Of a stretch of 64,000 nt of DNA, positions 48,717 through 63,247 are shown piece after piece. A program made the translations under genes and the position numbers. The notes under the pieces are model-generated. The model was not told the DNA's origin and searched no databases. It saw only the letters and a list, made by a program, of their open reading frames with translations. Origin of the DNA: Mangrovimonas spongiae (GTDB taxonomy: Bacteria > Bacteroidota > Bacteroidia > Flavobacteriales > Flavobacteriaceae); NCBI RefSeq assembly GCF_003944795.1, contig NZ_RWBG01000002.1, positions 186,001 to 250,000 of the forward strand. The letters are read 5' to 3'. Each line of letters starts with the position of its first letter. Within the stretch, counting starts at the first letter, position 1.

Positions 48717-48760
48717 TTAAATTAAGTAATATGTATGTTTTTTAAAATGACCTTTATCAT
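48717..48760 (-). promoter_or_regulatory. FNR-like site S1 and -7 element, hsp20
   Basis: ATGACCTTTATCAT (48747-48760). TAATTTAA on the minus strand (48717-48724) is centred 33 bp downstream and matches six of eight positions counting n positions. Confidence 0.65.
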
Positions 48761-52822: not shown

Positions 52823-53671
52823 TCAATAACGTCGAATGTTTTGTAATGCTAAAAAAGGAATTTTTATTTGTAGACTTATTTCATCTATAGTAGATTTAAA
52901 GAGTATCTTTTCTAGAAACGAATGCCTTGTATTAACCATAACTAACATATCTATAGCTTCGTTTTCTACATAGTCGTATATAGCTTTTATGATATTTTTG
53001 CTTTCAATCGTTTTAAAGTTAATAGGGCTTCGACATAATTCTTCTTTTATAAAATTTTGATTGTCTTCTTGCCTAATGGAAAGTTTACGTGTTTTTGATA
53101 TGTATAACATATCTATTATAGAGCGATATGGAGATGCTAATTCGCATAATAATTTTAATTCTCTTCTTTTGTATGGAATTAAATAATTGGTGGGAAATAA
53201 AATATGTTTGGGTTGCGTGTAGGTATAATTTTCGGGTATAGCTAGTACAGGACACTGTACATATTTTAACACCTGTAAAGTATGACTTCCAAAGGTTAAA
53301 CGCCTATCATTAGTCTCTCCTCGTGTTCCCATTACAATAACATCTATATTTTCTTTATCTACAATAGCATCCACCTCATCTACAAGCATACCATTAACCG
53401 AAATGATATGATAAGAATGCCTAGGATTTGGCGATACATCATGAAGCTGCTTTAAGGTATCTTCCAATTTGGCTTGAGACTCGTTACTTACCATGTTTGT
53501 TATTTCGTCTAACACGTTTCTATTTACTAGAGAACTACTGTTATAAATGTCGTCTTGATATGCATGCATAATAAACACTTTACTTATATCGTATTTAAAC
53601 AACTCTACAGCATATTTTATAGCATTCATGGCGTTGCTGGAAAAATCTGTTGGAATCAATATTTTTCTCAT
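52823..53671 (-). CDS. Universal stress protein, tandem UspA domains
   Basis: This 282-aa protein starts MRKILIPTDFSSNAMNAIKYA, the standard Usp strand-loop-helix. The first domain has the motif GTRGETNDRRLTFGSHT near residue 114; the second domain is degenerate. It leads a minus-strand run of up to six genes (usp, usp, eRF1-like, ATP-cone nuclease, beta-CASP nuclease, helical protein). The FNR-like site S2 and a TATTTTTA element lie upstream. Confidence 0.92.
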   Translation of the reverse strand: MRKILIPTDFSSNAMNAIKYAVELFKYDISKVFIMHAYQDDIYNSSSLVNRNVLDEITNMVSNESQAKLEDTLKQLHDVSPNPRHSYHIISVNGMLVDEVDAIVDKENIDVIVMGTRGETNDRRLTFGSHTLQVLKYVQCPVLAIPENYTYTQPKHILFPTNYLIPYKRRELKLLCELASPYRSIIDMLYISKTRKLSIRQEDNQNFIKEELCRSPINFKTIESKNIIKAIYDYVENEAIDMLVMVNTRHSFLEKILFKSTIDEISLQIKIPFLALQNIRRY

Positions 53672-53704: not shown

Positions 53705-53748
53705 TAAAAATACAACCTAAAAAGAAGGAAAACCATGACATATATCAG
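53705..53748 (-). promoter_or_regulatory. FNR-like site S2 and -7 element, usp operon
   Basis: ATGACATATATCAG (53735-53748) and TATTTTTA on the minus strand (53705-53712), 33 bp between centres. Confidence 0.7.
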
Positions 53749-53805
53749 ATTATAACGTTTAGTTAGTTCTACACAAATACGTGTTACATCTTCTTGTTTT
53801 TAAAA

Positions 53806-53837
53806 CAAAAAAAAACGGGAAGCTTTAACTTCCCGTT
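53806..53837 (-). terminator. Intrinsic terminator (second of two)
   Basis: Stem ACGGGAAG / CTTCCCGT with a 6-nt loop; the U-tract is on the minus strand. Its sequence resembles the terminator at 53939-53973. Confidence 0.8.
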
Positions 53838-53938
53838 CCAGAAGATTTTAAATTGTTAAAGAACCGTAGTGCTATAACATTTAAACATCTTCATGACCTC
53901 CCTAATTACCGCAATTGGCAACTAAGGCTTGTTTTTTT

Positions 53939-53973
53939 TAAAAGAAACAGGAAGTTTTAACTTCCTGTTTCTC
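53939..53973 (-). terminator. Intrinsic terminator of the predicted small RNA
   Basis: Perfect 12-bp stem AGAAACAGGAAG / CTTCCTGTTTCT, 6-nt loop, minus-strand U-tract. Confidence 0.88.
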
Positions 53974-54151
53974 AACAAAAGTTTAATGTTGTTATCTAAA
54001 TCGCTTTTTAAAACAGCTTTATAACTAAAACTATTAATAAAAAAATAGCAAAGTAAATAACAAGTTTAAACTCTAAATACGACCTATAAATTTTACAAGT
54101 TATAAATCTATATTTGTTTAAGTTTATCTGTAATTCAAGGAACGTTTTAAC
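53943..54151 (-). ncRNA. Predicted ~205-nt small RNA under the FNR-like regulator
   Basis: The 552-bp stretch 53672-54223 has no protein gene. It holds promoter S3 at 54157-54200 pointing leftward, and the strong terminator 53939-53973 ends the transcript. Between them the minus strand has no ATG at all. Initiation is predicted near 54151 from the -7 element. The upstream gene (usp, 54224) could also be terminated by this hairpin, but that does not explain an activator site placed after that gene. Start site and existence of the RNA are inferred. Confidence 0.55.
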
Positions 54152-54156
54152 AGTTA

Positions 54157-54200
54157 CTAAAGTACGATAATTAATTTACTTACAACATGATATATATCAG
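54157..54200 (-). promoter_or_regulatory. FNR-like site S3 and -7 element, orphan promoter
   Basis: ATGATATATATCAG (54187-54200) and TACTTTAG on the minus strand (54157-54164), 33 bp between centres. No coding sequence follows. Confidence 0.65.
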
Positions 54201-54223: not shown

Positions 54224-55069
54224 TTATTCGTGTATTACATAAAAAGGTAATTTGGTATGATAGCTTATTTTTGTTGTATTATTATGAAATAATATTTGTT
54301 GAAAGTAATTTAGGTTTTTAGCGACCATAACCATCATATCTATCTGTTTTGTTTCAATAAAAGATTGTATCTCGTCTTCTATATTATTACTAGTGTTTAA
54401 AAAGTGGTAACTTCGATTAACAGTGTCGAAATAATCTTCTAAAAGATCTTTACATGCTTTTTGACCAATATTTAATTGTGCTTCGTTTTGCCCAATATGA
54501 AGCAGTCTTAAATTGGCATTTTTAGTTTTTAAAATCTCAGCTATAGGTTGCAATATTCTTATATCACTAGATAAAGCAAAATCTGTGGGAAATGCTAATT
54601 CCTTTATGTTTAAATAAGTAGCTTTTTCTGGCACCACCAAGGTAGTACATTGTACTTTAGTTATAATACTGCCTGTATGACTCCCCACAATATAGTCTCG
54701 TAAATTAGAGACGCCTTGTGTACCCATAAGTATGAGGTCTATATTTTTTTCAGAAACATGTTGTCGTACAGAGGCTACAAAAAAGCCATAATCGGCAAGG
54801 GTATAAAATTTATGTTTGGTATTCTGTGGCCTTTCTTTTGCTATTCGTTTTAAAACGTTTCTTAACTGCTTTTTTACTGGTTTAATATAGAAACTTTCTA
54901 TTGTCTCGTTATGAGGCTTAGTATTTGTTTCACCTTGGTTTGAAGTGTTTACGGTAGTAACATGAAGTAAGTAAAAATTACATTCGTTATTTACAAAAAA
55001 GTCTAACCCAAACGTCAAGGCATTCCATGAGTTCTCTGAAAAATCTGTTAGAAATAGAATATTTTTCAT
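54224..55069 (-). CDS. Universal stress protein, tandem UspA domains
   Basis: This 281-aa protein starts MKNILFLTDFSENSWNAL. The first Usp domain carries GTQGVSNLRDYIVGSHTGS near residue 115; the second is degenerate. The frame opens seven codons upstream at 55090, but the -7 element TAGATTTG at 55092-55099 predicts initiation near 55086, inside that extension, so the Met at 55067-55069 is chosen. It is regulated by site S4. Confidence 0.9.
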   Translation of the reverse strand: MKNILFLTDFSENSWNALTFGLDFFVNNECNFYLLHVTTVNTSNQGETNTKPHNETIESFYIKPVKKQLRNVLKRIAKERPQNTKHKFYTLADYGFFVASVRQHVSEKNIDLILMGTQGVSNLRDYIVGSHTGSIITKVQCTTLVVPEKATYLNIKELAFPTDFALSSDIRILQPIAEILKTKNANLRLLHIGQNEAQLNIGQKACKDLLEDYFDTVNRSYHFLNTSNNIEDEIQSFIETKQIDMMVMVAKNLNYFQQILFHNNTTKISYHTKLPFYVIHE

Positions 55070-55091: not shown

Positions 55092-55135
55092 CAAATCTAC
55101 ATCTAACTAAAGTTTCAGAACATGATATTAGTCAT
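55092..55135 (-). promoter_or_regulatory. FNR-like site S4 and -7 element, usp
   Basis: ATGATATTAGTCAT (55122-55135) and TAGATTTG on the minus strand (55092-55099, perfect TAnnTTTG), 33 bp between centres. Confidence 0.78.
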
Positions 55136-55158: not shown

Positions 55159-56202
55159 TTAGTACATATATTGCAGTTTTTGAAGATCTAGAATTTTAAT
55201 ATTTCTACCTTCTATTTCTATAATGCCTTCTTTTTTAAATTTTGACATAGTTCTAATTAATGTTTCGGTTGCAATACCTGCTACACTTGCTAAATCGCTT
55301 CGCGAAATACTTATAGGATCTTCTGGTTTAGCATTTAGTTTTTCAGCAAATTTTAAAATGGTGGTTGCTGTTTTTTTATGTACAGAACTGTAGGCCATTT
55401 GTAACAATTGTTCTTTTACACCTTTTAAATCGTCTGTTAATAATTGGATAAGCGCTAAGGTAACTTCATGGTTTTGTGTTAAAACATTTTTAAGGTCGTT
55501 TATAGAAATGCCTACCATTTCTAGATCTTTAACTGCTGTTGCTGTTTCTTGATAAGGTATGTTTTGGGTAAAAGATGTATAACCAAATAAATCGTCTTCT
55601 TTATATAAGGCCGTCGTTAGCTCTTTACCTTGTATATCTATTTTATGGCATTTTACAACGTCTTTTGTTATAAGGTATATAAAGTTAGAGTGATTTCCTT
55701 CTCTGTAAACAACATCGTCTTTTTTATACTTAAAAATGGTTCCGTTATCGTCTAAGAAGTTTTTTAAATCGTTTAAATCCCTTATGTCATCTGTATTAGC
55801 TTGTTTATGTATTTCATGCTCTTCTTTTAGGATAGCAGATTTAGCTATACGACTTTTAATGGTATTAATAAGCTCGTTCTCTTCAAAAGGTTTTGTTAGG
55901 TAGTCGTCGGCTCCTATATTCATGCCTTTTCTTACATCTTGCCGTTCTGTTTTTGCCGACAGAAAGATAAATGGTATATATTTCGTTGTGTTATGTTTTG
56001 TTAGTTCTTGTAATACATCATAACCATCCATTTCTGGCATAAGAATATCACAAACAATAACATCTGGCAGATGTGTTATGGCTTTTTCTAAACCTATTTT
56101 CCCATTGGGCGCTACAATTACGTTATAGTTTGAAAGCTCTAATAATTCTGATGTATTTTCTCTTAAAATTGCATCGTCTTCTATTAACAATACCGTTTTC
56201 AT
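55159..56202 (-). CDS. Response regulator fused to a Crp/Fnr-type effector and HTH
   Basis: This 347-aa protein has three parts: a REC domain (residues 1-120, phospho-acceptor Asp52 in DVIVCDILMPEMDG, Lys in FLSAKTER), a cyclic-nucleotide-binding-like domain (about 150-265) and a Crp-type winged HTH (about 280-340). The recognition helix IATETLIRTMSKF keeps the Glu and Arg of FNR, which read TGA/TCA half-sites. It overlaps the histidine kinase gene by 4 bp. It is the best candidate to bind sites S1-S6. A REC-FixK-like fusion joins what FixJ and FixK do separately. Confidence 0.9.
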   Translation of the reverse strand: MKTVLLIEDDAILRENTSELLELSNYNVIVAPNGKIGLEKAITHLPDVIVCDILMPEMDGYDVLQELTKHNTTKYIPFIFLSAKTERQDVRKGMNIGADDYLTKPFEENELINTIKSRIAKSAILKEEHEIHKQANTDDIRDLNDLKNFLDDNGTIFKYKKDDVVYREGNHSNFIYLITKDVVKCHKIDIQGKELTTALYKEDDLFGYTSFTQNIPYQETATAVKDLEMVGISINDLKNVLTQNHEVTLALIQLLTDDLKGVKEQLLQMAYSSVHKKTATTILKFAEKLNAKPEDPISISRSDLASVAGIATETLIRTMSKFKKEGIIEIEGRNIKILDLQKLQYMY

Positions 56203-57422
56203 AACTGTATATTATTTGGCAATTCAATGGTAAAAACAGTTCCTTTGTGCTCTACACTATCAAAGTATATTTTACCTTTTAAATTTTTCATATGATCTTT
56301 AACAATATTAAGTCCAATGCCTGTTCCTTGTGTTAACAAAGCGTTTTCAGCTCTAAAATAACGGTTAAATATATTCTTCTGATCTTTTTCTGGAATGCCA
56401 ATGCCATTGTCTTTTACTTTAAATACTGTTTTTTGCTTATCTTGTGTGATAGCAATATCTATTTCTGTATGTTCTGAAGAATACTTTATGGCATTATGTA
56501 CCAAATTAGACAAGGCCAGTTCTAGTATTTTTTCATCTTGATGTAAAGAAAAAGTATCTATAGCTTCTGGGTAATTAATTTTTTGCCCTTCTTTTAATAA
56601 CATATTGGCATTATAAACCACCTCGTTTACAACTTTACTTAATTTAAAAGTGGTTGGCGTGTATTTAAGTTTACCTTTTTCTAACTTTTCTAACGTTAAA
56701 AAGTCGTTTAAGATATTATTGAGATAATGTACTTTATCTGATATGGTTTTGATATGCTTATTGCGCTTTTCTTGTTGATCGGTTAGTTGGTATTTACTTA
56801 ATAACATGGTAGAGGTTAAGATACCTGTTAAAGGGGTTTTGAACTCATGCGACACCAAAGATAAAAATTTGGTTTTCAAGTCATTAAGCTCCTTTTCTTT
56901 TTTAAGCGCTAACTTAGCTTTAGCCTCAGCTTTAATACGTTTTTCATTCTCTGCCTGCAGTTCAAGAATCATATTATTTAACTCCTGCGTTCTTTTTAAA
57001 ACCTTGTCCTCTAAGTTTTCATTTAAGGTTTTAATTTTTTGTTCTTGCTCTTTACGCATCGAAATATCGATAACCAAAGCCATAACATATTTTTTTCCAT
57101 AAATGGTAAAAGGATTTAACCCCGCTTCCATAGGAAATATATCACCGTTTTTACAAGCGCCATAAATATCTCTTCCCTGCCCCATTTGACGGCGTTCTTG
57201 CTGTTTCATAAAACCATCAAAATGAGATTTGTGGTCTTTATGATATTGATTAGGAATTAAAATATTAAGGGGTTGTTTTAGCAGCTCTTCTTTACTGTAG
57301 CCAAACATTTTTTCTGTGGCATCGTTAACTTCAACTATATGTTGACGGTCATCAACGATGATAACACCTTCTGAAATAGATTCCAAAAGGATTTTAAAGA
57401 TGTCTTGATCTTTTTGAAGCAT
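56199..57422 (-). CDS. PAS-domain sensor histidine kinase, FixL-like
   Basis: This 407-aa kinase has one PAS domain (10-125), a long coiled coil (125-185), HisKA with SHEFKTPLTG (His192) and HATPase_c with N-box NLVHNAIKYS, KDNGIGIP and GTGIGLNIV. There is no membrane helix, so it is a cytoplasmic sensor. The PAS stretch from Pro57 to Arg84 aligns gap-free with FixL, placing His64 at the proximal haem His (FixL His200) and Arg84 at the O2-contact Arg (Arg220). Non-haem PAS domains can share this His, so haem binding is a hypothesis. It is cotranscribed with the REC-Crp regulator. Confidence 0.9.
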   Translation of the reverse strand: MLQKDQDIFKILLESISEGVIIVDDRQHIVEVNDATEKMFGYSKEELLKQPLNILIPNQYHKDHKSHFDGFMKQQERRQMGQGRDIYGACKNGDIFPMEAGLNPFTIYGKKYVMALVIDISMRKEQEQKIKTLNENLEDKVLKRTQELNNMILELQAENEKRIKAEAKAKLALKKEKELNDLKTKFLSLVSHEFKTPLTGILTSTMLLSKYQLTDQQEKRNKHIKTISDKVHYLNNILNDFLTLEKLEKGKLKYTPTTFKLSKVVNEVVYNANMLLKEGQKINYPEAIDTFSLHQDEKILELALSNLVHNAIKYSSEHTEIDIAITQDKQKTVFKVKDNGIGIPEKDQKNIFNRYFRAENALLTQGTGIGLNIVKDHMKNLKGKIYFDSVEHKGTVFTIELPNNIQL

Positions 57423-61641: not shown

Positions 61642-62403
61642 CTATTGTTTAAAAAAGGCTTTTATTTTAGGGTCGTTAGCGGTTGAGAGCTCTTTAAAGG
61701 TTCCTTTGGCATAATCTACCCCATCTATTAATAAAATCATTCTATCCGAAATTACTCTTGCACAATCTACATCGTGCGTTATAATAAGCGACGATGTACC
61801 ATAGGTTTTTTGAATATCCTGCATTAAGATAATAATTTCTTTGGCTGTAATAGGATCTAATCCACTTGTTGGCTCATCGTATAAAATAATTTTAGGTTGT
61901 AAAATAAGTGTTCTTGCTAGTGCTACACGACGTTTCATACCTCCAGACAACTCGGCTGGCATTAAATCTATAGTGTGTTCTAGCCCAACATTTTTTAAAG
62001 CTTCGATAACGAGCTCTTCGGTATTATTATGATTTTTAAACTTTCTTTTGTGTCGTCGTAAAGGAAACTCTAAATTTTCTCTTACCGTCATAGAGTCGTA
62101 AAGAGCACTGCCTTGAAATAAAAATCCTATATCGGCTCGTAATATATCTAGCGATTTTTGATCTAGTTTTGTAATATCATTGTCCATAACAGTAATGGTG
62201 CCTTTATCGACTTCCATTAAACCCACTAAACATTTTATCATAACCGATTTTCCAGATCCCGATTTTCCCATAATCACCAAGTTTTCACCTTGATAAAGTT
62301 GCATATTAAACCCATTAAGCACATGGTTATCGCCAAAGCTTTTGTGTAAGTTTTTTATTTCAAGAACCATATTCTTGGGAGTTATGTTTGCGTTGTCATT
62401 CAT
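61642..62403 (-). CDS. MlaF-like ABC transporter ATPase
   Basis: This 253-aa ATP-binding subunit has Walker A GKSGSGKS near residue 41, the signature LSGGMKRR near 148 and Walker B ILYDEPTSG near 174. It powers MlaE for lipid movement between membranes. It overlaps mlaE by 4 bp. Confidence 0.93.
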   Translation of the reverse strand: MNDNANITPKNMVLEIKNLHKSFGDNHVLNGFNMQLYQGENLVIMGKSGSGKSVMIKCLVGLMEVDKGTITVMDNDITKLDQKSLDILRADIGFLFQGSALYDSMTVRENLEFPLRRHKRKFKNHNNTEELVIEALKNVGLEHTIDLMPAELSGGMKRRVALARTLILQPKIILYDEPTSGLDPITAKEIIILMQDIQKTYGTSSLIITHDVDCARVISDRMILLIDGVDYAKGTFKELSTANDPKIKAFFKQ

Positions 62404-63182
62404 AAATCGTAAAAAATATCGGTTACAAAAACAGCAATAAAATCAATAATAAATAGTAATAATGACGTAAAAACAACAGCTGAATTTGCTGCTTTTCCTA
62501 CACCAGCAGTCCCTTTGGTAGAAAAATAGCCTTTAAAACACCCAACAAGACCTATGGCTAATCCAAAAAAGAACGATTTTATCGTGGCAGGAATAATGTC
62601 GCCAAACTCTAGAGCATTAAACACTTGATTAAAATATAGCGTAAAAGAAACGTTTCCTTTTACATTTTCGACTAAAAACGAGCCAAATAACGCTATAGCA
62701 TCTCCAAAAATAACTAATAATGGCAACATAAATGTTACAGCCAAAACACGTGTAACAACCAAGTATTTAAAAGGGTTTGTACCCGAAACCTCCATGGCAT
62801 CAATTTGTTCGGTAACCCGCATAGAACCTAACTCGGCACCAATACCAGAACTTATTTTTCCTGCACAAACCAAAGCTGTAATAATAGGCCCTATTTCTCT
62901 TACTATAGAAATACCAACCATTGACGGCATCCAAGAAACGGCTCCAAAATCCATTAATGTGGGGCGCGTTTGCAATGTTAATACTAATCCTATTATAAAT
63001 CCCGTTACGCCTACTAATAACAAAGACCGATTTCCAATATTATAACATTGGTATAAAAACTCTTTAAACTCGAATGGACGTTTAAATGCTTCCTTAAAAA
63101 ACCGTGTAGCAAAGTAAGACAACTCGCCTATTTCTATCAAAAAGGCGTTTAATTTTGCTCTTGAAGTGTTGAATCCTGACAT
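62400..63182 (-). CDS. MlaE-like ABC transporter permease
   Basis: This 260-aa membrane protein has about five to six helices and the MlaE signature GAELGSMRVTEQIDAMEVSG near residue 135. It forms the membrane channel for the lipid importer/exporter MlaEFD. The frame opens eight codons earlier at 63206, but the TAACTTTG element at 63204-63211 predicts initiation near 63198, so the Met at 63180-63182 is chosen. The S6 site places this envelope transport operon under the stress regulator. Confidence 0.92.
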   Translation of the reverse strand: MSGFNTSRAKLNAFLIEIGELSYFATRFFKEAFKRPFEFKEFLYQCYNIGNRSLLLVGVTGFIIGLVLTLQTRPTLMDFGAVSWMPSMVGISIVREIGPIITALVCAGKISSGIGAELGSMRVTEQIDAMEVSGTNPFKYLVVTRVLAVTFMLPLLVIFGDAIALFGSFLVENVKGNVSFTLYFNQVFNALEFGDIIPATIKSFFFGLAIGLVGCFKGYFSTKGTAGVGKAANSAVVFTSLLLFIIDFIAVFVTDIFYDL

Positions 63183-63203
63183 ATGCTTTATAACATCCAA
63201 TAT

Positions 63204-63247
63204 CAAAGTTATTGCAATAATCTAGTGGGTAAAATGATATATATCAT
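63204..63247 (-). promoter_or_regulatory. FNR-like site S6 and -7 element, mlaEFD operon
   Basis: The perfect palindrome ATGATATATATCAT (63234-63247) and TAACTTTG on the minus strand (63204-63211, perfect TAnnTTTG), 33 bp between centres. It also lies upstream of the divergent flavoprotein gene at 63338, but no -7 element has the right spacing on that side. Confidence 0.8.

Follow-up and report, generated by a model that had tools for sequence, protein, structure and literature searches.

A candidate oxygen-linked noncoding RNA with tandem structured units between two universal stress protein genes of Mangrovimonas spongiae

Genes and promoters of the locus

The window, by which we mean the whole stretch of 64,000 nucleotides of the Mangrovimonas spongiae contig that was analysed, carries on its minus strand two genes for universal stress proteins (Usp), together with the genes for a response regulator and a histidine kinase. 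Between the two Usp genes lies an activator site, S3, which faces no ATG-initiated gene and was taken, in a preliminary description of this DNA, to drive a small regulatory RNA. The features on which our analysis bears are the following, in positions of the window:

54188-54199, minus strand: S3, TGATATATATCA, a palindrome of CRP/FNR activator type with its centre at -41.5 relative to the predicted RNA start
54157-54164, minus strand: -7 promoter box, TACTTTAG, 23 nt after S3, with the predicted RNA start at 54152
54137-54145, minus strand: 5'-leader motif, ACGTTCCTT, a candidate pairing seed
53940-54109, minus strand: structured unit 1, matched by our model R1 at 94.8 bits with the filters off
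54075-54115, minus strand: helix P1 of unit 1, from fold prediction
53977-54073 (approximate limits), minus strand: long helix P2 of unit 1, with an internal loop region
53944-53971, minus strand: helix P3 of unit 1, a 12-bp perfect stem, the longest T run after it being 4
53806-53930, minus strand: structured unit 2, diverged (fold z-score -6.6; R1 match at 53925-53808, 32.9 bits)
53803-53839, minus strand: P3 of unit 2 with its T tail (longest run 9), a probable intrinsic terminator
53736-53747, minus strand: activator site before the Usp gene 52823-53671, of the same type as S3
52823-53671, minus strand: Usp gene downstream of the RNA (Pfam PF00582)
54224-55069, minus strand: Usp gene upstream of the RNA (Pfam PF00582)
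55123-55134, minus strand: activator site before the Usp gene 54224-55069, of the same type as S3
55159-56202, minus strand: response regulator with receiver, cNMP-binding and Crp-type helix-turn-helix domains, the likely activator (Pfam; co-occurrence)
56199-57422, minus strand: histidine kinase with a FixL/DosP-like PAS domain, a candidate heme oxygen sensor

In several relatives (e.g. loci L057 and L161) a hydrophobic ORF of about 130 aa, with an end like ...LFLLNIVYGI..., lies after the first Usp gene and ahead of the RNA array; in the window, no counterpart of it was seen in the interval from the Usp gene to S3.

S3 had been said to show the same spacing and strand logic as the gene-linked sites, and this is the case, as a 23-nt spacer and a -7 box follow all three sites, the spacer at S3 being of the same length as those at 53736-53747 and 55123-55134. 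The window contains five copies of the full motif (TGAY-N4-RTCA, 23 nt, TANNTT(T/A)R), whereas 100 dinucleotide-Markov random windows gave 0.04 on average and 1 at most. We surveyed this grammar in 80 named loci, each around a relative of the downstream Usp. TGA-N6-TCA followed after 23 nt by TAnnTT occurred 337 times, versus 6 for the reversed control; with a stricter motif the 23-nt spacer was counted 281 times and every other spacer from 14 to 32 nt at most 17 times. In 76 of these loci, out of 79 that could be assessed (one of the 80 begins too near the gene), a full site of this kind lies 59-72 nt upstream of the Usp start; in the window the distance is 76 nt. Upstream of the RNA arrays, the promoter is present in all of the 31 that were taken forward, with a -7 box that reads TAnnTTAG in 24 of them. 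Site, 23-nt spacer and TAnnTT together make a sharp tool with which to map the regulon.

Flavobacterial sigma-A promoters are described as having a TAnnTTTG box at -12 to -5 (PMC9723704). This register, laid on the box at 54164-54157, puts the RNA start at 54152, a position that follows from that of the -7 box, and centres S3 at -41.5. That is the class II FNR position, and we infer a promoter of class II CRP/FNR type.

The -7 boxes before the downstream Usp are mostly TAnnTTTA or TAnnTTTG, unlike those of the RNA arrays. As for the window's remaining copies of the motif, another perfect TGATATATATCA with a 23-nt spacer and the box TAACTTTG lies at 63204-63246 (minus), directly before the ORF 62400-63206, which is ABC permease-like (MlaE-like by eye), and a fifth full motif, with site TGATAAAGGTCA and box TAATTTAA, is at 48717-48759 (minus).

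Structured units, transcript end and coding potential

The fold z-score is -6.1 for the segment 54165-53937 and -6.6 for 53930-53806. Unit 1, which reaches 94.8 bits with R1, is itself a row of the model's own alignment (A5), while unit 2, at 32.9 bits with the filters off, is not. A default-filter scan of the whole window with R1 gave no match, which we attribute to filter loss, because the 94.8-bit match appears once the filters are off.

The hairpin at 53941-53972 was initially presented as a 12-bp perfect-stem terminator. The stem is there, but its tail, TTTTAAAA, has a longest T run of only 4, and the hairpin is absent from the list given by the terminator scan. A better reading makes it the final hairpin of a structured unit of about 170 nt, of which other Flavobacteriaceae have between one and five copies in a row behind the same promoter (five units were matched in the largest array, L098, and a single one was detected in several carriers, e.g. 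L084, L086 and L163). The second, sequence-related terminator that had been noted fared better, since the hairpin at 53812-53839, with a GC stem and a T run of 9, is listed by the scan and is likely the transcript's terminator. As both hairpins end R1-matched units, the transcript probably runs to about 53806, and the T runs of 4 and 9 likewise place its expected end there, for a length of about 346 nt; a partial end at the first hairpin is possible. The idea of a noncoding RNA thus stands, but instead of a single simple sRNA we find a tandem array. Across the arrays, a T run of at least 6 follows 8 of 57 unit hairpins, whereas of 18 other hairpins in these stretches 13 have one, and since the unit hairpins mostly have no terminator tails, read-through arrays are to be expected. 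A U-tailed hairpin (run of at least 6) is found at or after the last unit in 16 of the 31 arrays, and in the remaining ones a clear terminator was not found, in both cases within the stretch searched.

In G001, a genome of the same genus, the intergenic stretch is kept at 83% identity, and all other blastn matches to the whole intergenic stretch were short (29-58 nt). Several regions upstream of Usp genes in other genera contain an extra site with no gene behind it, then repeated units that end in AAACAGGAAG/CTTCCTGTTT-like hairpins. Alignment A5 kept 28 of 35 hairpin units, in 28 rows from 17 loci, one per genome; the seven units dropped beforehand were the second units of the window, G001 and L070 (misaligned), one duplicate (L028) and three differing ones. 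Secondary structure is conserved in these relatives, as the preliminary description had envisaged: 14 of 29 consensus pairs are changed on both sides, with 54 doubly changed cells, where shuffling gave 12.1 on average and the slid controls 6-15; tandem copies from one genome are not independent in this alignment. The sequence of P3 is nearly invariant and P2 covaries. For P1, 5 of 12 pairs show double changes in 16 middle-type units, which were chosen for a visible P1 and come from other genomes than the window's.

The units also tend to keep their order. In a tree of 50 units, from which other matched ones such as the window's second unit were left out and in which some branches are long and were flagged by the program, 15 of 22 first units, including that of the window, fall into one group (96/94); a second group (99/99, 15 rows) holds 11 of 14 last units, and a third (98/91, 17 rows) 10 of 14 middle units. 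The three position labels need 7, 7 and 8 changes on this tree, versus shuffled means of 16.6, 12.3 and 12.4. The position of a unit in its array would therefore seem to be kept strongly, but not perfectly.

Minus-strand positions 54151-53937 contain no ATG, as had been stated, and six TTG, none of which lies in the one long open frame, a frame that is open for 47 codons from 54151 and has no ATG, GTG or TTG. The conserved protein with a non-ATG start that had been named as the contrary outcome was not found in this region; the longest open frame lacks a start codon, and there is no reading frame that is kept across units. Thirteen of the 31 arrays contain, at any place, an ATG frame of at least 25 codons (one of those in L068 and one in L074 is the beginning of the Usp gene). 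Among the 59 units that could be anchored (three could not), such frames pass through P3 in seven (L057, L072, L098 twice, L059, L159 and L163), and in the next frame through P3 in three. Translated in the frame through P3, middle-type units from other genomes yield short peptides that resemble one another (about DDIKYFGETGSFGFLF). The same frame is stop-free for 4 to 74 codons across units (4 in the window) and its stops fall at varying places, as expected if P3 is kept as a helix, and we read the likeness of the peptides as a probable by-product of that helix.

Distribution of the array among Flavobacteriaceae

R1 matches 27 of 149 genomes of the family at E <= 0.01. The promoter is present at a match in 20 of these, and was not found at the match in the other seven (G061, G062, G076, G109, G112, G144 and G155). 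An order-wide sample, run with stricter filters by which weak matches can be lost, gave matches at 1e-5 in 4 of 296 genomes, all in the same family. Of the 31 arrays taken forward, 14 gave no row to R1. Matches outside the training rows include those in G146 (89.6 bits), G163 (76.1 bits), G136 (58.4 bits) and a second locus of G086 (61.3 bits), and all four have the promoter, although the promoter is absent from R1. Some arrays lie at other sites: the one in G136 has a PEP-synthase-like ORF of 800 aa on one side and a DUF302-like ORF on the other, those in G033 and G010 directly follow the regulator gene and precede Hsp20-like ORFs (all names by eye), and one in G086 is beside a second receiver-CRP regulator. 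Promoter grammar, compensatory changes, recurrence in other genera and loci and the absence of a reading frame kept across units all lend good support to the original proposal of a noncoding RNA that shares the regulator of its neighbours.

In the second array of G086 (locus L158), the adjoining genes are a paralogous receiver-CRP regulator and a kinase, and the array is flanked by two copies of another hairpin (TCTGGGACATT...).

Matches of R1 on the opposite strand, which overlap the palindromic P3, were rejected as units and are not counted. Eight weaker matches without the promoter were rejected as lone hairpins: L166 (E = 4.7e-4), L142 (3.0e-6, with just 315 nt of contig before the match), and L146, L147, L148, L149, L151 and L154 (5.4e-4 to 0.01). 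Left out of the 31 arrays were also L144, L150, L152, L153 and L167, where the promoter is 65-273 nt upstream of the match, L134 and L139, which likewise have an upstream promoter, and L066 (32.6 bits). At the gathering score, Rfam matched neither the RNA of the window nor eight array loci, the sole match in the window being one tRNA far from the RNA; matches below the gathering score, obtained with an E-value threshold, were rejected as chance or terminator-like (the best was L20_leader, at 29 bits versus the 58.7 needed).

Regulator, mode of action and alternative explanations

The receiver-CRP regulator at 55159-56202 is the most likely activator at S3. At 1e-60 it is present in 16 of 17 carriers of the RNA (1e-5) versus 50 of the 132 others among the 149 genomes (Fisher p = 7.7e-6, with no correction for relatedness and with G062 among the carriers, although its match resembles a lone hairpin). 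G163 has the RNA and no regulator match at 1e-60, and in G002 and G003, of the same genus as the window, neither RNA nor regulator was found. Compared with solved structures at 1e-8, the PAS domain of the kinase matched DosP and FixL chains (13 sequences, one of them named yddU), with E = 3.6e-13 for FixL 1d06. The heme His of FixL, presumably the proximal heme ligand, aligns with His64 of the kinase, and the oxygen-contact Arg, which we take to be the residue that senses oxygen, aligns with Arg84. Of the 80 loci, 37 have a PAS match, and among these the heme His is kept in 33 (Leu in 4) and the oxygen-contact Arg in 22. The kinase at 56199-57422 may be a heme oxygen sensor and, given the FixL-like PAS domain of this partner, low oxygen is the likely signal. 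That the RNA and its neighbours share a regulator, as first suggested, still seems probable, but the regulator looks like part of an oxygen-type two-component system, not of a generic stress type. FixJ, like the protein at 55159-56202, has a receiver domain; the output of FixJ is LuxR-type, whereas here it is cNMP-binding plus HTH_Crp_2.

The leaders offer a clue to how the RNA might act. Of 31 leaders, 23 carry GTTC(C/T/A)(T/A) between +9 and +17 relative to the predicted start and eight lack it, whereas shuffled leaders gave a mean of 1.06 and a maximum of 6, leaders of related genomes not being independent. This GUUCNU-like motif is a candidate sRNA seed. Its complement occurs at most 25 nt upstream of an ATG 263 times in six genomes, versus 171 times for one scrambled word, but the word, AAA GAA CGT, is also made of common codons and turns up as ordinary in-frame coding sequence.

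We consider it likely that positions 54152 to about 53806 (minus) are a gene for a trans-acting noncoding RNA, driven at low oxygen by the receiver-CRP regulator together with the Usp genes. As oxygen falls, the FixL-like kinase (56199-57422) would drive the response regulator (55159-56202), which, bound at -41.5, would touch RNA polymerase at the TAnnTTAG -7 box and so activate the RNA and the neighbouring Usp genes together. The transcript would consist of a short leader with the GUUC motif and two tandem units, each of P1, P2 and P3, and would end at the U-tailed second hairpin. Most likely it acts in trans, its leader pairing with mRNAs, while the tandem structured units could stabilise it or present repeated binding surfaces. 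Leader pairing is our first choice for the mode of action, and titration by the repeated units comes second. A probable low-oxygen response would then include a layer of control by RNA.

Several properties of the arrays would also suit a multivalent sponge or scaffold, in which the active part would be the tandem units and not the leader, each module of about 170 nt binding a protein or another RNA that the array titrates at low oxygen: as many as five units were matched in a single array (L098), most arrays have one promoter, P3 is nearly invariant in sequence beside a covarying P2, and just 8 of 57 unit hairpins have a T run of at least 6. We nonetheless hold this to be rather unlikely, in view of the single unit detected in several carriers (e.g. 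L084, L086 and L163) and of the leader motif conserved in 23 of 31. As a tentative suggestion, one might speculate on a new RNA class of Flavobacteriaceae, an ordered and mostly single-promoter module array that would serve as the multivalent RNA arm of an oxygen-sensing two-component system, either by titrating protein or RNA or by being processed into a set of distinct sRNAs. The array stands directly before a Usp gene in the window and in many relatives, and in only 16 of 31 arrays does a U-tailed hairpin close it, as might befit a cis-acting 5' leader or attenuator in which read-through of the hairpins controls Usp expression. This is improbable, since a full site of its own precedes the Usp gene (by 59-72 nt in 76 of the 79 loci and by 76 nt in the window), and arrays at other places stand before DUF302- or Hsp20-like ORFs (by eye) or a long way from the nearest Usp gene.

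Tandem copies and strong palindromes, and some lone hairpins that match R1 weakly, are what one would see if a repetitive extragenic palindrome or mobile hairpin element sat by chance between the Usp genes. Exact AAACAGG...CCTGTTT hairpins are however few (0-7 per genome in 149 genomes), and the most R1 matches in any one genome is nine, both strands counted; the promoter is at 31 of the 31 arrays taken forward, the unit types largely keep their order across genera, and the helices covary, which makes such an element very improbable. Least credible of all is a small protein gene. It could draw on the window's 47-codon open frame, on the similar peptides through P3 in middle-type units, and on ATG frames of at least 25 codons through P3 in 7 of 59 units and anywhere in 13 of 31 arrays, but the open frame has no ATG, GTG or TTG, the P3 frame in the window is 4 codons long and stops at differing places elsewhere, and paired positions change together.

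The best reading of the trans-acting RNA that we favour is a putative new family of regulatory RNAs, hypoxia-type and tandem, with FnrS as an analogue. To our knowledge, few regulatory RNAs have been characterised in Bacteroidota. FNR, the regulator of FnrS, is an iron-sulphur protein, whereas the regulator here is a receiver-CRP protein. The LhrC-type multicopy sRNAs of Listeria and the sibling sRNAs of Neisseria also comprise several related RNA units, in stress or metabolic regulation; unlike in these, most units here are under one promoter and are of ordered first, middle and last types. In the account of PMC3032703, the E. coli fnrS promoter has an FNR site at -41.5 (class II), and a 3' Rho-independent terminator is described for the FNR-linked FnrS of the gonococcus. 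Like FnrS of Escherichia coli and Neisseria gonorrhoeae as presented there, the array RNA is a noncoding RNA with its own class II FNR-type promoter, here a predicted one; unlike FnrS, it has tandem structured units in most arrays and belongs to another phylum. As there is no Rfam match at the gathering score, no homology to FnrS is detected. Flavo-1 and 6S-flavo (Rfam RF01705 and RF01685), given in PMC2864571 as structured noncoding RNAs of Bacteroidetes, are from the same phylum as the array RNA, and neither was matched at the gathering score in the window and the eight array loci. Rfp18 of Flavobacterium psychrophilum (PMC9723704) is likewise a structured and conserved sRNA from Flavobacteriaceae, and it is reported to have a role in regulation. 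It differs in its link to metalloproteases, and the main text of that paper contains neither 'Crp' nor 'universal stress'. Among the matches listed in a search of the open literature, no oxygen-linked (FNR) or tandem flavobacterial RNA like this one is described.

Array carriers in cultivation include Algibacter luteus, Flaviramulus basaltis, Jejuia pallidilutea and Hyunsoonleella jejuensis. With a clear promoter, a likely sensor, such carriers and a compact target for deletion, RNA control of the flavobacterial low-oxygen response would be directly testable.

Upstream of the Usp gene in four loci (L023, L054, L066 and L071, the last three from Xanthomarina and Bizionia), two orphan sites stand in a row, each followed by its own hairpin. 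The stem sequences differ, and R1 matches only L066, weakly (32.6 bits). These hairpins are possibly diverged members of the same RNA.
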